Shown here one piece after another: positions 1,285 to 13,755 of a stretch of DNA of 41,223 bases. Below the pieces are notes generated by a model. The model saw only the letters and a list, made by a program, of their open reading frames with translations. It made no database searches and had not been told where the DNA came from. This DNA is from a virus. Within the stretch, counting starts at the first letter, position 1; the number at the start of each line of letters is the position of its first letter. The DNA lies in the IMG/VR virus record IMGVR_UViG_3300028394_003304, positions 1 to 41,223 of that record; one strand, written 5' to 3'. The position numbers and the translations under genes were made by a program.

Positions 1285-2742
1285 ATGTCATCTAAAAAAA
1301 TACTTAATTTTTTCTCTTTCCTGAATGAGGCAAAGGCTGAAACCACTAAGGTTATCGTATTAACGGGTAATGTTAAAGGTAGTAAGACATCAACATCATT
1401 CAAGGAAGAATGTGAAAAAAGAAAAATAGAATGCCATATCATTGACGTAAATGATGCGGTTTTAGAAAAAGTGTATAACGGGCATCTTTTAAAAACAGAG
1501 GATGAACAAATACTAATCGAGCCCAATTCAACGGTGATTGTACCAAGGAGGGGTGTTCTTGAGAATTCATACACTAAGCAAATATTACTTTCATTGGAAG
1601 AAGCTAGATATTTCACAATAAATAGTCTGGAATCTATGGAGGCATGCGAAAATAAATTCGTTACCTCACAGATAATGGAGGAATACGGATTACCAGTTCC
1701 TAGATATTCGTTAGTACCAAACGAGGATTTTCTAGATAAGGCGCTGGAAGCAGTTGGTGGTAAATTCCCTGTCATTATGAAGCTTCTTTCTGGTACCCAA
1801 GGTATCGGAGTTTCGATAGTTGATTCTTATGCTTCACTCAAATCAGTTTACCAAACAATAAGAAAACTTGACGATACCAACGAGATTCTAATACAGGAGA
1901 AAATTAATTCAAAGTCTGATCTTAGAATACAGGTAATAATTAAGAAATTTGATCCGCTAAATCCTAATGCTGATAACTGTATCATTTTGGGATCTATGGA
2001 AAGAAAGGCAGTCGATAAGGATTTTAGAACCAATTATTCTTTGGGTGGAAGCGTTTCAAAATTTGAAATATCAGAAGAGATTAAAGACATTGCATGCAAA
2101 GCAGCAAATGCAGTTGGATGCCACTGGTGTGGAGTTGATATCATGATCGACGAGAAAACTAAGAAACCCTACATTTTAGAGGTTAATTCATCGCCAGGCA
2201 CAGAAGGTATATCCAAAGCAATAGGTAAACCTATCGTTGATGATGTTATAGATTATCTAATCGACAAGGAAAACTGGGCGTACTCAAACATGGAGGTTGG
2301 ATACCTTGAGAATATTAACATTCCTGGTGTTGGTTATGTTGTTGCTAAGTTTGATACTGGTAATGGTGCTAAATCATGTTCACTACAAGCTGATAGCATA
2401 GAAGAGAAGGATGGAAAATTAATATGGTCTATTGGGAAGAAAAAATTTGTTAATGATATAGTTGGTTATTCTGATGCCGAAGTTGGTAGAGATGTACACA
2501 CAAGACCAATTATAGAACTAGATATTGTTTTTGACGGAATTACCATACCCTCTGTTATGATATCACCAGTGGACAGAGCAGATAAAAGCACACCATTCTT
2601 AGTAAACAGAGCTCTGATGAGAAGAATGGGACTTATAGTTAACCCCTATAAAGCATTTGTTGTTAGTAATGAGCCTGACGATAAATATAGTGTTAAACTT
2701 GCAAAGGGTGAAGCCCACGCAGGAATTGAATTTGAAAAATAA
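1285..2742 (+). CDS. RimK-like ATP-grasp ligase fused to a retropepsin-like domain, with head-targeting-like N terminus
   Basis: 485 aa. Residues about 1-17 (MSSKKILNFFSFLNEAK) resemble a T4 capsid-targeting peptide with a possible prohead-protease site at L-N-E/A. Residues about 20-330 form a RimK/GshB-type ATP-grasp: the pre-ATP-grasp half, then P-V-I-M-K-L-L-S-G-T-Q-G-I-G-V (ATP-binding lysine and glycine-rich loop), I-L-I-Q-E-K, a D-L-R-I-Q-V segment, and the metal-binding stretch Y-I-L-E-V-N-S-S-P-G-T-E-G. Residues about 340-470 match the retropepsin-like domain that accompanies RimK (COG4067/RimB type): active-site K-F-D-T-G-N-G-A-K-S and later R-P-I-I-E-L-D and F-L-V-N-R-A-L. RimK enzymes add glutamate to the C terminus of ribosomal protein S6. 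The substrate here is not known. A single chain with ligase and protease-like halves could modify and unmodify one target. Confidence 0.85.
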   Translation: MSSKKILNFFSFLNEAKAETTKVIVLTGNVKGSKTSTSFKEECEKRKIECHIIDVNDAVLEKVYNGHLLKTEDEQILIEPNSTVIVPRRGVLENSYTKQILLSLEEARYFTINSLESMEACENKFVTSQIMEEYGLPVPRYSLVPNEDFLDKALEAVGGKFPVIMKLLSGTQGIGVSIVDSYASLKSVYQTIRKLDDTNEILIQEKINSKSDLRIQVIIKKFDPLNPNADNCIILGSMERKAVDKDFRTNYSLGGSVSKFEISEEIKDIACKAANAVGCHWCGVDIMIDEKTKKPYILEVNSSPGTEGISKAIGKPIVDDVIDYLIDKENWAYSNMEVGYLENINIPGVGYVVAKFDTGNGAKSCSLQADSIEEKDGKLIWSIGKKKFVNDIVGYSDAEVGRDVHTRPIIELDIVFDGITIPSVMISPVDRADKSTPFLVNRALMRRMGLIVNPYKAFVVSNEPDDKYSVKLAKGEAHAGIEFEK

Positions 2743-5839: not shown

Positions 5840-6278
5840 GGGGCTGACCAGGTATTGATTGGCAGCATTAGTTCTTTGAGATGCAGGCAGAGTTAGTATT
5901 GGAAACTCTTAAATAACCTATACAACGCTTTAAACGGCAAAACAAATGTTTGGGATACCATCAACCAGTTTGGTGCTCCCGTAGCTCAAGTTGAGTTCGC
6001 AGTAGCGGCTTAACCGTCGGGTCTCACTTACCTAGGAACAGAAAGGTGAAAGCGGGAAAAAGGGTTAACAGTACCACAATCCGGCATTCCATCAGTAACC
6101 CTGAAATACCATTAAGATCGCTGTTAATGGGTGCCAAATGGAAGTCTAGTTCACGATAAACCGAACCATTAAAATAAGGGAATCGTAAATTTTGTCAATT
6201 TAGAAAAATTGTCTAAGCCTGTGAATGAGTCCTTAGGGTTAACTGAGCAAGACGCGGGTTCGATTCCCGCCAGTTCCA
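5840..6278 (+). ncRNA. ssrA: transfer-messenger RNA (tmRNA)
   Basis: The 5' end GGGGCTG pairs with the 3' CAGTTCC (7 bp with two G-U pairs), followed by discriminator A at 6278. The T arm is GCGGG-TTCGATT-CCCGC at 6254-6270. CCA is not encoded (CTG follows), so it must be added. The tag frame ends ...V-E-F-A-V-A-A at a TAA (6011-6013), the A-x-A-A ending recognised by ClpXP. The frame is open upstream; by distance from the 5' end (E. coli resumes near base 90) the resume codon is GCT 5927 or GGC 5936, giving a tag of about 25-28 residues, longer than the roughly ten of most bacteria. At 439 nt it is a little long. The function is to rescue stalled ribosomes and tag the nascent chain. The 5' and 3' ends are well supported; the resume codon is not. 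Confidence 0.92.
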
Positions 6279-6292
6279 CTGACGCTATTTCG

Positions 6293-6332: not shown

Positions 6333-7175
6333 ATGCCAAGAAAGAAACATAAATACCACTACATCTACAAAATAACTTGCACCAAAACCAAAAGATATTA
6401 TATTGGAATGCACTCAACCGATAAACTGAATGATGGTTACATGGGAGGAGGAAAAAGAATAAGAAATTCGATAAGAAGGCATGGCAAGGAAGCACACACC
6501 AAGGAGATTTTGGAATATTTTGATGACAGGGAATCATTAAGAAACAGAGAGATTATATTAGTTAACGAGGATCTATTAAATGATCCGATGTGTATGAATT
6601 TACAACCCGGAGGTGGAGGGGGAATAATAAACAAAACACATCTAAAGGATTTTTGTCAGGCTGGAAATAAAGCATTCATCGAGAAACTAAAAGACGATGA
6701 CTATAGGAACAGATTTATCGAGAGCACAAAGGAAGGAAGGGAAAGGGGGGTTGCTAAAGCCAAAGAACTCTATGAAAAGGGTGCATATAGGCTGGACACT
6801 TTTAAAGGCCGAACACATACGCCAGAAACGATTTTAAAGATGAAAGAATCAAAGAAATCACACGGGGAGGGGAATAAAAACTCCCAGTTCGGAAAGAAAT
6901 GGATAAGAAATTTGGAAACAATGGAATGCATAAAGATAGACTCTTCTGAGTACGAAAAGTATGTAAGCTTAGGTTGGGAATCCGGAAGATTTCCGGATTC
7001 CGGTGGATCTTCTGTTAAACTAACCGAATCTCAAATCATTGAAATAAAAACTATGTTATTTAAAAATGTTAAAGTGACCGAAATAGCTAAAATTTTTCAA
7101 ACATCGATAACGACCATTAGAAAAATAAATCGAGGTGATATCTGGAACCATGTTAATATAAACAGATTGGATTAA
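6333..7175 (+). CDS. GIY-YIG homing endonuclease
   Basis: 280 aa. N-terminal GIY-YIG domain: Y-I-Y-K-I-T at residues 10-15 and Y-Y-I-G-M-H-S at 22-28, then G-G-G-K-R-I-R-N-S-I-R-R-H-G and the conserved acidic step R-N-R-E-I-I-L-V-N. M-N-L-Q-P-G-G-G-G-G ends the domain. The C-terminal 60 residues hold a helix-turn-helix-like unit (V-T-E-I-A-K-I-F-Q-T-S-I-T-T-I-R-K-I). Such enzymes make site-specific double-strand breaks and spread by repair, as T4 Seg proteins do. It lies 54 nt after the tmRNA, a typical position next to a conserved RNA gene. No intron is visible in the tmRNA. Confidence 0.92.
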   Translation: MPRKKHKYHYIYKITCTKTKRYYIGMHSTDKLNDGYMGGGKRIRNSIRRHGKEAHTKEILEYFDDRESLRNREIILVNEDLLNDPMCMNLQPGGGGGIINKTHLKDFCQAGNKAFIEKLKDDDYRNRFIESTKEGRERGVAKAKELYEKGAYRLDTFKGRTHTPETILKMKESKKSHGEGNKNSQFGKKWIRNLETMECIKIDSSEYEKYVSLGWESGRFPDSGGSSVKLTESQIIEIKTMLFKNVKVTEIAKIFQTSITTIRKINRGDIWNHVNINRLD

Positions 7176-11571: not shown

Positions 11572-13143
11572 ATGAAGTTTGAAGAATTAACACCTGAACA
11601 AATTTCAGATCTCTCGGAAATTTATTGGAACCGTAACTTAGCATGGGACGAAAGAATGAAACAGCTAAGCCAATATTTGGGAAAATCTGAAAGAACAGTT
11701 CAAAGTTGGGTCTCAAAGTTGGGCATCACTGAAAAGTCTATACAAGAATCACCTGAATTAATAAAAGCAAAGGAGAGAAAGTTTAATAAAAGAAAGAAAA
11801 GATTTATTATAACTTGGGCTCAAAATGACACACCGGTCCACAATGCTTTTGTTTCTAATATAGAGGAGTATGCAAAATTTATAAATGCTGATATCCACGT
11901 AATAGCGGGAAGATATAAAAATCCAACCTCGGTATTTAGTGATCAGGCATATGATACATGGTCTCCACGAATATCACAATATCTGGATGCTAATAGACAT
12001 GAAGTTCATAAACATATGTGGATCATGTCTGATGTTAAGATCCAACCAACCGCAGTAGATCCTATGACTGGACTACAGGGTATGAGCGGGATTAATTCAT
12101 GCGTATTTGGATCACCAAGGGTTCATATGGAAACTATTCCTGTACTAGAGGGAAATATGCCAAAGATGATGATGTCTACAGGAGCATGTACAGTTAAAAA
12201 TTACACAGATTCCAAATCGGGTAAAAAAGGGGAGTTCCACCACACGTTAGGATTTGTTGTTGTCGAGATAAAGGATCAGACTATATTCTTTGCCCGCCAG
12301 GTGACTGCAACGGATGACGGCGATTTCTGCGATCTTTACAATAAGGTTACTTATGATTATGATAATGATATGAGCTCGGTTACTAAGATCGAATCAATCT
12401 CAGCTGCAATACTAGGAGATCTACACTATGGTCAGCATGATGAACGGGTTATTGAAAAAACGCTAGATCTTTTTAAAATCATAAATCCAGAAAACGTTGT
12501 ATTGCATGATGTGTTTGATGGATTATCTATTAATCATCACGAATCGAAAGATCCATTCATACAATACCAAAGAGAACTCGAAGGAACAAACTCGTTAAGG
12601 GGTGAAGTTGATTCGATGCTAGATGGGTTAAAGGATTTTGAAGATTATAATGTAACAATAGTTAGAAGTAATCACGACGATTTTTTAGACAGGTGGCTAA
12701 AAGGAACCGATTGGAGGAAGGCTACGACAATGAAGAATTCCATAGAATATATGGAGTATAGCGCATTGATACTTAAAGGAGCAGCACCAAATGGAGTGAT
12801 ACCCTACTTAATAAATCAAAAATATCCTAAATTCAGGACATTAGGTAGAAGCGATAGCTTTGTTATAAGCGGATGGGAACTTGGACAACACGGTGACATA
12901 GGATCCAGCGGGACTAGAGGTTCTTTATTGCAATTTAGAAAACTAAACACAAAAATAGTGGTTGGACATTATCACTCTCCCGGAAGAAGAGACGGTGCTT
13001 TAGCTGTTGGTACTTCAACCAAACTTAGAGTAAATTATAATATCGGACCCAGTGGATGGCTTCAGTCACATGTTATAATACACCATGACGGTAAAGCACA
13101 GCACATCAATTTCATCAGGGGAGAATACACAACTTTAAAATAA
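11572..13143 (+). CDS. HTH plus calcineurin-like metallophosphoesterase, possible DNA-transfer-type nuclease
   Basis: 523 aa. Residues about 5-50 hold a helix-turn-helix (Q-L-S-Q-Y-L-G-K-S-E-R-T-V-Q-S-W-V). After a beta-rich middle with conserved-looking D-T-W-S-P-R and M-W-I-M-S-D, a metallophosphoesterase core starts near residue 280: L-G-D-L-H-Y-G-Q-H, V-F-D-G-L-S-I-N-H-H, V-R-S-N-H-D-D-F-L, L-G-Q-H-G-D and V-V-G-H-Y-H-S-P-G. These are the di-metal ligands of the family. Phage T5 A1, needed for second-step DNA transfer and host DNA breakdown, is said to have a comparable metal centre; the link is inference. A motif GATATAAATA at 11534-11543, close to the T4 late box TATAAATA, lies about 30 nt upstream of the start. 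Confidence 0.75.
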   Translation: MKFEELTPEQISDLSEIYWNRNLAWDERMKQLSQYLGKSERTVQSWVSKLGITEKSIQESPELIKAKERKFNKRKKRFIITWAQNDTPVHNAFVSNIEEYAKFINADIHVIAGRYKNPTSVFSDQAYDTWSPRISQYLDANRHEVHKHMWIMSDVKIQPTAVDPMTGLQGMSGINSCVFGSPRVHMETIPVLEGNMPKMMMSTGACTVKNYTDSKSGKKGEFHHTLGFVVVEIKDQTIFFARQVTATDDGDFCDLYNKVTYDYDNDMSSVTKIESISAAILGDLHYGQHDERVIEKTLDLFKIINPENVVLHDVFDGLSINHHESKDPFIQYQRELEGTNSLRGEVDSMLDGLKDFEDYNVTIVRSNHDDFLDRWLKGTDWRKATTMKNSIEYMEYSALILKGAAPNGVIPYLINQKYPKFRTLGRSDSFVISGWELGQHGDIGSSGTRGSLLQFRKLNTKIVVGHYHSPGRRDGALAVGTSTKLRVNYNIGPSGWLQSHVIIHHDGKAQHINFIRGEYTTLK

Positions 13144-13151
13144 TAAAAATA

Positions 13152-13755
13152 ATGATAATAAAAAATAATCCGCCTCTTCTTCGCGAGCTAAAGTTTATAG
13201 CTGGTGTTGACGAGGTGGGCTGAAGGCAGAGGATGTCTTAGCGGACCGGTTGTTGCCGCTGCTGTAATATTACCCGATGGATTTAGCGATCCGCGAATAA
13301 AGGACAGCAAAACAATAAAGAGCCCTAAAAAAAGAGAGGAGCTAGCAAGATTGATCATGGACAATGCCATAGCATGGGGTGTTGGTGCAAGTTCACCTCA
13401 GGAGATAGATCAGATAAACATACTTCAGGCAACGTTTCTAGCCATGAGAAGAGCTATAGATGCTTGCTCAGAAAAGCCAGATTTCTTATACATTGATGGG
13501 GATAAATTTCCTGGATATAAGGATGTACCATACGAATGTGTGATCAAGGGGGATTCTAAAATACTACAAATATCAGCAGCATCCATATTAGCGAAAGTTC
13601 ATAGGGATCAGCTTATGCAATCTCTGGACTCCGAATTTCCAAAGTACCTGTGGTCAAGAAATGTAGGATATGGAACAGCTGATCATATTAGCGCTATAAG
13701 AGAGATCGGTATAACAAAGCACCACAGAAAATCATTTTGTCAAAATTTTATATAA
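13152..13755 (+). CDS. rnhB: ribonuclease HII, interrupted by a 7-nt insertion with UGA (candidate recoding)
   Basis: RNase HII cleaves the RNA strand of hybrids. The first frame reads ...F-I-A-G-V-D-E-V-G and meets TGA at 13221. A frame starting at 13228 continues R-G-C-L-S-G-P-V-V-A-A-A-V-I-L and runs intact to 13755, with D-S-K, Y-I-D-G-D, K-G-D-S-K and A-A-S-I-L-A-K-V-H-R-D. Joining the two at GGC gives the family motif D-E-V-G-R-G exactly; the seven bases TGAAGGC (13221-13227) are extra. The catalytic Asp is in the first part, so the second part alone cannot be active. Options: hop from GGC 13218 to GGC 13225; +1 shift at GGC-UGA (adds E-G) aided by the upstream GAGGUGG; a recent mutation; or an assembly error. 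The stop TAA lies next to the following gene. Confidence 0.85.

Follow-up and report, generated by a model that had tools for sequence, protein, structure and literature searches.

An rnhB gene carried by an uncultured phage is interrupted by a stop codon within its active-site motif, and interrupted alleles of the same design occur in related phages. The reading favoured here, to which a probability of about 0.8 is given from sequence comparison, is that phage rnhB has been entered by a mobile cassette made up of a homing-endonuclease gene and a stop-hop site, which would work like mobA and gene 60 of phage T4, with a coding gap of only 3-5 nt.

The interrupted rnhB gene

The window, i.e., the whole stretch of 41,223 nt that was analysed, carries rnhB in two pieces, the features of which are listed in Table 1. 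A first-pass annotation had placed a stop at 13221 inside rnhB and a frame of 176 codons resuming after a skip. Both are borne out by the ORF calls and by Pfam, where ORF2 (GRGCLSGPVV...NFI, closed by the TAA at 13753-13755) matches RNase_HII with an E-value of 3.7e-35. Between the two pieces lie the TGA (13221-13223) and a single A (13224). Removal of seven bases yields the motif DEVGRG exactly, as had been claimed. The seven-base-skipped product has the best domain score of the joined products (5.3e-40, 137.9 bits), that of a +1 product being only slightly lower (1.1e-37, 130.4 bits). With the RNase_HII domain and the restored motif, the skipped product is recognizable as RNase HII, and it aligns without gaps through DEVGRG to the solved enzyme.

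Table 1. Features of the interrupted rnhB locus in the window
Feature	Positions	Strand	Evidence
Upstream neighbour, 523 aa, PHROG 'DNA transfer protein', A1-like	11572..13143	+	PHROG 2.1e-145
Footprint of lost endonuclease gene, AT-rich, overlapping the new rnhB start	13144..13168	+	Matches last codons (..NNDRKK stop) of the GIY-YIG ORF in L008/L015/L021
ORF1 or leader, replacement rnhB 5' end of 23 codons (MIIKNNPPLLRELKFIAGVDEVG), carrying the catalytic D-E	13152..13220	+
Predicted conserved RNA hairpin within the leader; 3' arm GAGGTGGG includes positions 1 and 2 of the take-off codon	13169..13219	+	z -6.2 versus synonymous recodings
Putative take-off codon GGC (Gly); same in 12/12 interrupted alleles	13218..13220	+
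Coding gap TGAA, i.e., stop UGA and one base	13221..13224	+
Putative landing codon GGC, first GGN past the stop; native Gly of DEVGRG	13225..13227	+
ORF2, remaining RNase HII, 176 aa	13225..13755	+	Pfam RNase_HII; low dN/dS between alleles

At first sight, the interruption stands on a single metagenomic contig, and a recent insertion or an assembly error had been left open as its cause. An assembly or sequencing error is now hardly credible. The window DNA recurs in another record (L002/L027) with 100% identity over 10,527 bp and in L034 with 99.95% identity over 11,705 bp, and therefore no assembly slip is involved. Eleven other alleles of the same design, scattered over the rnhB tree, complete the case for rejecting an artefact.

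Other features of the window concern the phage and its host. Positions 5840-6281 (+) hold a phage tmRNA (Rfam RF00023, 64.5 bits, E 7e-23), which was missed by ARAGORN and has an unusually long apparent tag of 25 aa from 5936 (GKTNVWDTINQFGAPVAQVEFAVAA). Matches to tmRNA are present in ten related phage contigs, eight of them above the gathering score. Directly 3' of the tmRNA gene, a homing-endonuclease ORF at 6333-7175 (+; phrog_314, 1.2e-37) possibly represents a separate homing site. An ORF at 1285-2742 (+) matches the PHROG family 'ribosomal protein S6 glutaminyl transferase' (3.2e-19) and is a candidate host-takeover gene. The phages carrying the interrupted rnhB belong to a family of large, uncultured phages. 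TTTG-type promoter-like sequences, along with weak DNA matches of the neighbouring gene to Cellulophaga and Maribacter phages, suggest a host among the Bacteroidota.

Junctions and leaders of the interrupted alleles

Relatives were gathered by homology searches with ORF2 of the window and with an rnhB ORF2 of a second family, together with pattern scans; all sequences are metagenomic. Besides uninterrupted genes, the comparison returned 11 further distinct interrupted alleles. The 12 are spread over two divergent rnhB families (the window, L006, L008, L010, L014, L015, L021, L030, L031, L145 (= L125), L144, and L172) and share one layout, in which ...GAY-GAG-GTG-GGC is followed by a stop (TGA, TAA, or TAG), the native GGN codon, and R-G. 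Seven alleles carry GGC-TGAA followed by GGC or GGA. The remaining junctions are GGC-TAA-GGC (L014), GGC-TGA-GGA (L015), GGC-TAGA-GGT (L145), GGC-TAAT-GGA (L144), and GGC-TAATT-GGT (L172). The gap thus measures 4 nt in nine alleles, 3 nt in L014 and L015, and 5 nt in L172 alone, so that every frame is represented among the skipped stretches, and all three stop codons are used.

The first-pass annotation had described a gap of UGAA between two GGC codons. Neither feature holds throughout: the gap reads UGA, UAA, UGAA, UAGA, UAAU, or UAAUU, and the landing codon is GGC in six alleles, the window included, and GGA or GGU in the remaining six, with the first two bases matching in all. The take-off GGC immediately precedes the stop in 12/12 alleles. 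The first GGN past the stop, whatever its frame, is in all 12 the native Gly codon, and a GGC-to-GGN join restores DEVGRG exactly in every case; the downstream frame is in phase with the upstream frame in only two of them (L014 and L015).

Taken singly, each allele could also be joined by an ordinary recoding event, namely a +1 shift for the 4-nt gaps, readthrough for the 3-nt gaps, and a -1 shift for the 5-nt gap. An SD-like GAGGTG just 5' of the junction, as in prfB, would suit a frameshift, as would the small difference in domain score given above. However, the products would be DEVG-E-G-RG (+1), DEVG-x-G-RG (readthrough), and DEVG-L-I-G-RG (-1), with two to three extra residues in an active-site motif that is gapless against solved RNase HII, and three separate mechanisms would be needed for one conserved module in which all three stops appear. 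In a +1 shift, re-pairing of tRNA-Gly on GCU would probably be poor. Such case-by-case recoding is improbable. A +1 shift at GGC-UGA, which had been named as the other option, fits the 4-nt-gap alleles only, and the gaps of 3, 4, and 5 nt rule out either an RF2-like +1 shift or readthrough as the single mechanism. Because gap lengths and stops vary, bypassing is the only single mechanism that would give DEVGRG in 12/12 alleles, and the earlier bypass reading gains support from this. The peptides predicted across the window junction are FIAGVDEVGEGR for a +1 shift and FIAGVDEVGR for a hop.

The leaders carry a second conserved feature. In each interrupted allele, one long hairpin (CCrCCTC...GAGGTGG) is predicted for the 50 nt that precede the stop, its 3' arm closing at the GG of the take-off GGC. 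When the 11 distinct leaders were compared with 1000 synonymous recodings each, minimum free energies of -27 to -34 and z values of -5.6 to -8.8 were obtained, and no recoding was as stable. The same test gave z values of 0 to +2.6 in 11 uninterrupted relatives, in which the strong hairpin is absent. The leaders thus hold predicted RNA structure beyond coding needs. In L015, L144, and L172, the middle of the stem is rebuilt from different bases, and 83.7% of stem cells are paired versus 36-54% when the partner is slid. Site-by-site covariation is modest and the covariation score of the stem is no higher than that of column shuffles, because the basal 8 bp scarcely vary; the structural claim therefore rests on the synonymous-recoding test.

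GAGGTGGGC, with the codons GAG-GTG-GGC, is present in 12/12 interrupted leaders and in 0/23 uninterrupted genes. One pattern scan required the GAG-GTG-GGC string; the homology searches did not, yet all interrupted alleles returned carry it. Over all allele pairs, leader codons show 147 synonymous versus 40 non-synonymous differences. The leader peptide PPxLxELx(F/Y)IxG[VIL]DEVG is largely conserved, and its PP and DEVG codons also form the stem. The leaders contain no KKYK nascent-peptide signal. No stop-containing A-site stem-loop was found, since a gap of 3-5 nt is too short to form one, and the pairing predicted past the stop is not common to the alleles.

It might also be supposed that rnhB is a split enzyme, in which the ORF2 product is initiated on its own and assembles with a DEVG peptide of 23 aa, like the endonuclease-split phage nrdA. 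Split but functional phage genes next to homing endonucleases are on record (PMC2988022), and in some alleles the ORF2 frame has an ATG or GTG close to the stop. Against this, L010, L014, L015, L030, L031, and L172 have no in-frame ATG, GTG, or TTG 5' of the landing codon, L014 and L030 have no such start within the first 40 downstream codons either, and the catalytic D-E would lie on a free 23-mer. A split enzyme is therefore very improbable, and reinitiation was rejected for want of conserved starts.

A wider screen of the fetched DNA (2.2 Mb, both strands) for a hairpin, a sense codon, a stop, and a near-matched codon placed the rnhB alleles at the top. The other matches were weaker, mostly GC-rich, and look like chance. 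The screen took in 80 endonuclease loci, so that no second target gene was found there. In bacterial genomes, the hairpin-stop pattern hit 11 sites, all attributed to chance and all outside rnhB; cultured phages gave no match to the leader, and no rnhB in them exceeded 50% identity.

Endonuclease partners, spread, and selection

Directly 5' of the interrupted rnhB in L008, L014, L015, L021/L023/L025, and L030 lies an intact ORF, roughly 220 aa in length, that has GIY-YIG and NUMOD3 domains. It matches a PHROG homing endonuclease at 1e-43, and its final codons share bases with the new start of rnhB (L008: ..AATAATGATAGAAAAAAATAA). Only decayed pieces of it are left in L006, L031, and L145, the window retains about 25 nt, and L010 has a small unrelated ORF in the endonuclease position.

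A different partner is found in L144. There, the native rnhB 5' end (MIKEKKLLIEWPDYKYVAGLDEVG) is stranded before a TAG (1932-2005, 24 codons ending DEVG) and is followed by a 316-aa Vsr-like ORF, a second leader, the stop and gap, and ORF2. The 316-aa ORF has Vsr-type endonucleases from Tenacibaculum phages as relatives (1e-8), Pfam DUF559 reaching only 0.006. The nearest relatives of L144 (L176-L178) have the same native 5' end, uninterrupted at that point. With a GIY-YIG enzyme in the first family and a Vsr-like one in L144, one hop module is thus associated with two unrelated endonucleases. The stranded 24 codons of L144 may be translated into a short peptide. In L172 (4442-4769), a second-family hop module occurs without an endonuclease gene, and the start of its leader resembles the native start of L182 (MK..KILEYAP). 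This layout suggests that the module is able to move or persist through recombination alone. Rfam gave no match for the locus in the window, L008, L144, or L172, and on this basis neither a self-splicing group I intron nor a known RNA family was retained as an explanation.

The adjoining endonuclease ORF, empty sites in relatives, and a spread that departs from the gene tree mark the interruption as a mobile cassette. In cassette-free relatives (L003-L005 and others), rnhB lies directly 3' of the DNA transfer protein gene. When 33 ORF2 proteins were placed on a tree, the interrupted alleles did not cluster, and the interruption state changed 11 times, with at least six changes forced by well-supported branches, which shows repeated gain or loss across the sampled rnhB sequences. 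The leaders are 79-100% identical, compared with 69-84% for the ORF2 parts; in L008 and L021, the leader is identical and ORF2 is 84% identical (16% different).

ORF2 is open, with no stop or frameshift, in every complete interrupted copy, and omega is approximately 0.04-0.12 where dS could be estimated. By these estimates, ORF2 is under purifying selection, also in alleles without the endonuclease gene, including the window. Part, perhaps much, of the ORF2 divergence may predate the insertion, so that dN/dS supports, and does not prove, expression after insertion. This early divergence would agree with an insertion that kills rnhB, leaving ORF2 as a decaying remnant and the hairpin in the service of the endonuclease gene (expression control or a role at the DNA level), and homing endonucleases can damage their targets. 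A killed gene is nevertheless improbable: complete copies of the 12 alleles keep ORF2 intact with low dN/dS, the IxG[VIL]DEVG coding of the leader runs exactly to the joint and its changes are mostly synonymous, and alleles whose endonuclease gene is missing or broken still have both hop site and hairpin (the window, L006, L010, L031, L145, and L172). Moreover, each contig has one rnhB, including contigs of 290-348 kb, and no second intact copy was found on the contigs checked. The single gene, together with the persistence of hop site, hairpin, and ORF2 after loss of the endonuclease, points to a functional interrupted rnhB.

Proposed mechanism and known systems

From this architecture, we infer the hop itself, a role for the hairpin, the endonuclease target, and protection from cleavage. 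A free-standing homing-endonuclease gene would have inserted between the DEVG and RG codons, the most conserved part of rnhB. The element would have supplied a replacement rnhB 5' end, whose start codon overlaps the endonuclease ORF at its end and whose leader closes with I-x-G-[VIL]-D-E-V-G, together with a stable hairpin and a GGC immediately followed by a stop. Once this leader is translated, the ribosome would stall, with GGC bound by peptidyl-tRNA-Gly and the A site occupied by the stop codon. The tRNA would release and the mRNA would slide by 6-8 nt, possibly aided by the hairpin re-zipping on leaving the ribosome, as has been proposed for the T4 gene 60 5' stem-loop (PMC5009743). While GGC occupies the P site, no more than the apical stem could be outside the ribosome, and the remainder could zip during the slide. 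The tRNA would then re-pair with the first GGN, the gene's own Gly codon, and translation would restart at R-G to give the exact DEVGRG enzyme. Half of the landing codons (GGA, GGU) mismatch the third base of GGC, so that the first two G-C pairs may carry the re-pairing and seem sufficient for it. The retained stop and spacer, which a seamless joint would lack, would keep the occupied allele distinct from the empty target and probably guard it from recutting, as is thought for the T4 gene 60 insert (PMC5009743). In several lineages, including that of the window, the endonuclease gene would have decayed, leaving the hop site alone.

More broadly, the alleles probably belong to a phage family of mobile stop-hop cassettes, in which a compact hairpin-GGC-stop module, a skip of a few bases in any frame, and unrelated endonuclease partners would permit the invasion of essential codons without intron or intein splicing. 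Skipping at the level of translation would then recur as a route of homing endonucleases into conserved codons. As a dozen natural variants of the module differ in stops, gaps, landing codons, and stems, the requirements of hopping should be readable by comparison and directly testable. Gene callers will label such genes broken.

T4 gene 60 is the one firmly known case of programmed bypassing among phages, and shorter counterparts have long been presumed (PMC5009743). No report of an interrupted rnhB locus was found in the literature searched, which gave partial coverage. The T4 system shares with rnhB a Gly take-off codon, an immediate stop, a Gly landing codon, a 5' stem-loop thought to zip behind the sliding ribosome, an SD-like GAG before landing, and an insert beside a homing-endonuclease gene in a phage gene of DNA metabolism (PMC5009743, PMC11194080, PMC3014915). 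The first-pass annotation had proposed this likeness from the matched GGC codons; it has been strengthened by the adjoining endonuclease gene and the stem-loop reaching the take-off codon, while strict GGC-GGC matching proved not to be conserved. The gap, however, is 50 nt in gene 60 and 3-5 nt in rnhB, which leaves no room for an A-site stem-loop, and take-off follows 46 codons in the former and 23-27 in the latter. Neither the A-site stem-loop of gene 60 nor its KKYK nascent-peptide signal is matched by anything in the rnhB alleles, and the HNH enzyme MobA is replaced by GIY-YIG or Vsr-like endonucleases. The T4 case has been described as unique among its relatives (PMC3014915), whereas rnhB offers many alleles with varied stops and gap lengths. 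With no stop-containing stem-loop, no KKYK, and a gap ten times shorter, the rnhB site would fall outside the gene 60 type, as a variant form of programmed bypassing.

Three further systems invite comparison. The RF2 (prfB) +1 frameshift has an SD-like sequence just 5' of a sense-UGA pair, but its model fails for 3-nt and 5-nt gaps, and the rnhB sites vary in stop identity and possess a hairpin. In the mitochondrial byps of Magnusiomyces capitatus, short inserted blocks are skipped and imperfect codon matching is tolerated (PMC5009743); byps are reported to be independent of mRNA context, whereas the rnhB site is preceded by a dedicated hairpin and leader. Closest in layout are the synthetic stop-hops, in which matched codons around a stop are read, over 9 nt, as one residue (PMC5009743). 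GGC-UAA-GGC of L014 has the same layout, and the other rnhB alleles add 1-2 nt or alter the third base of the landing codon. The stop-hops are constructs, whereas the rnhB site is natural, conserved, and coupled to a strong hairpin.
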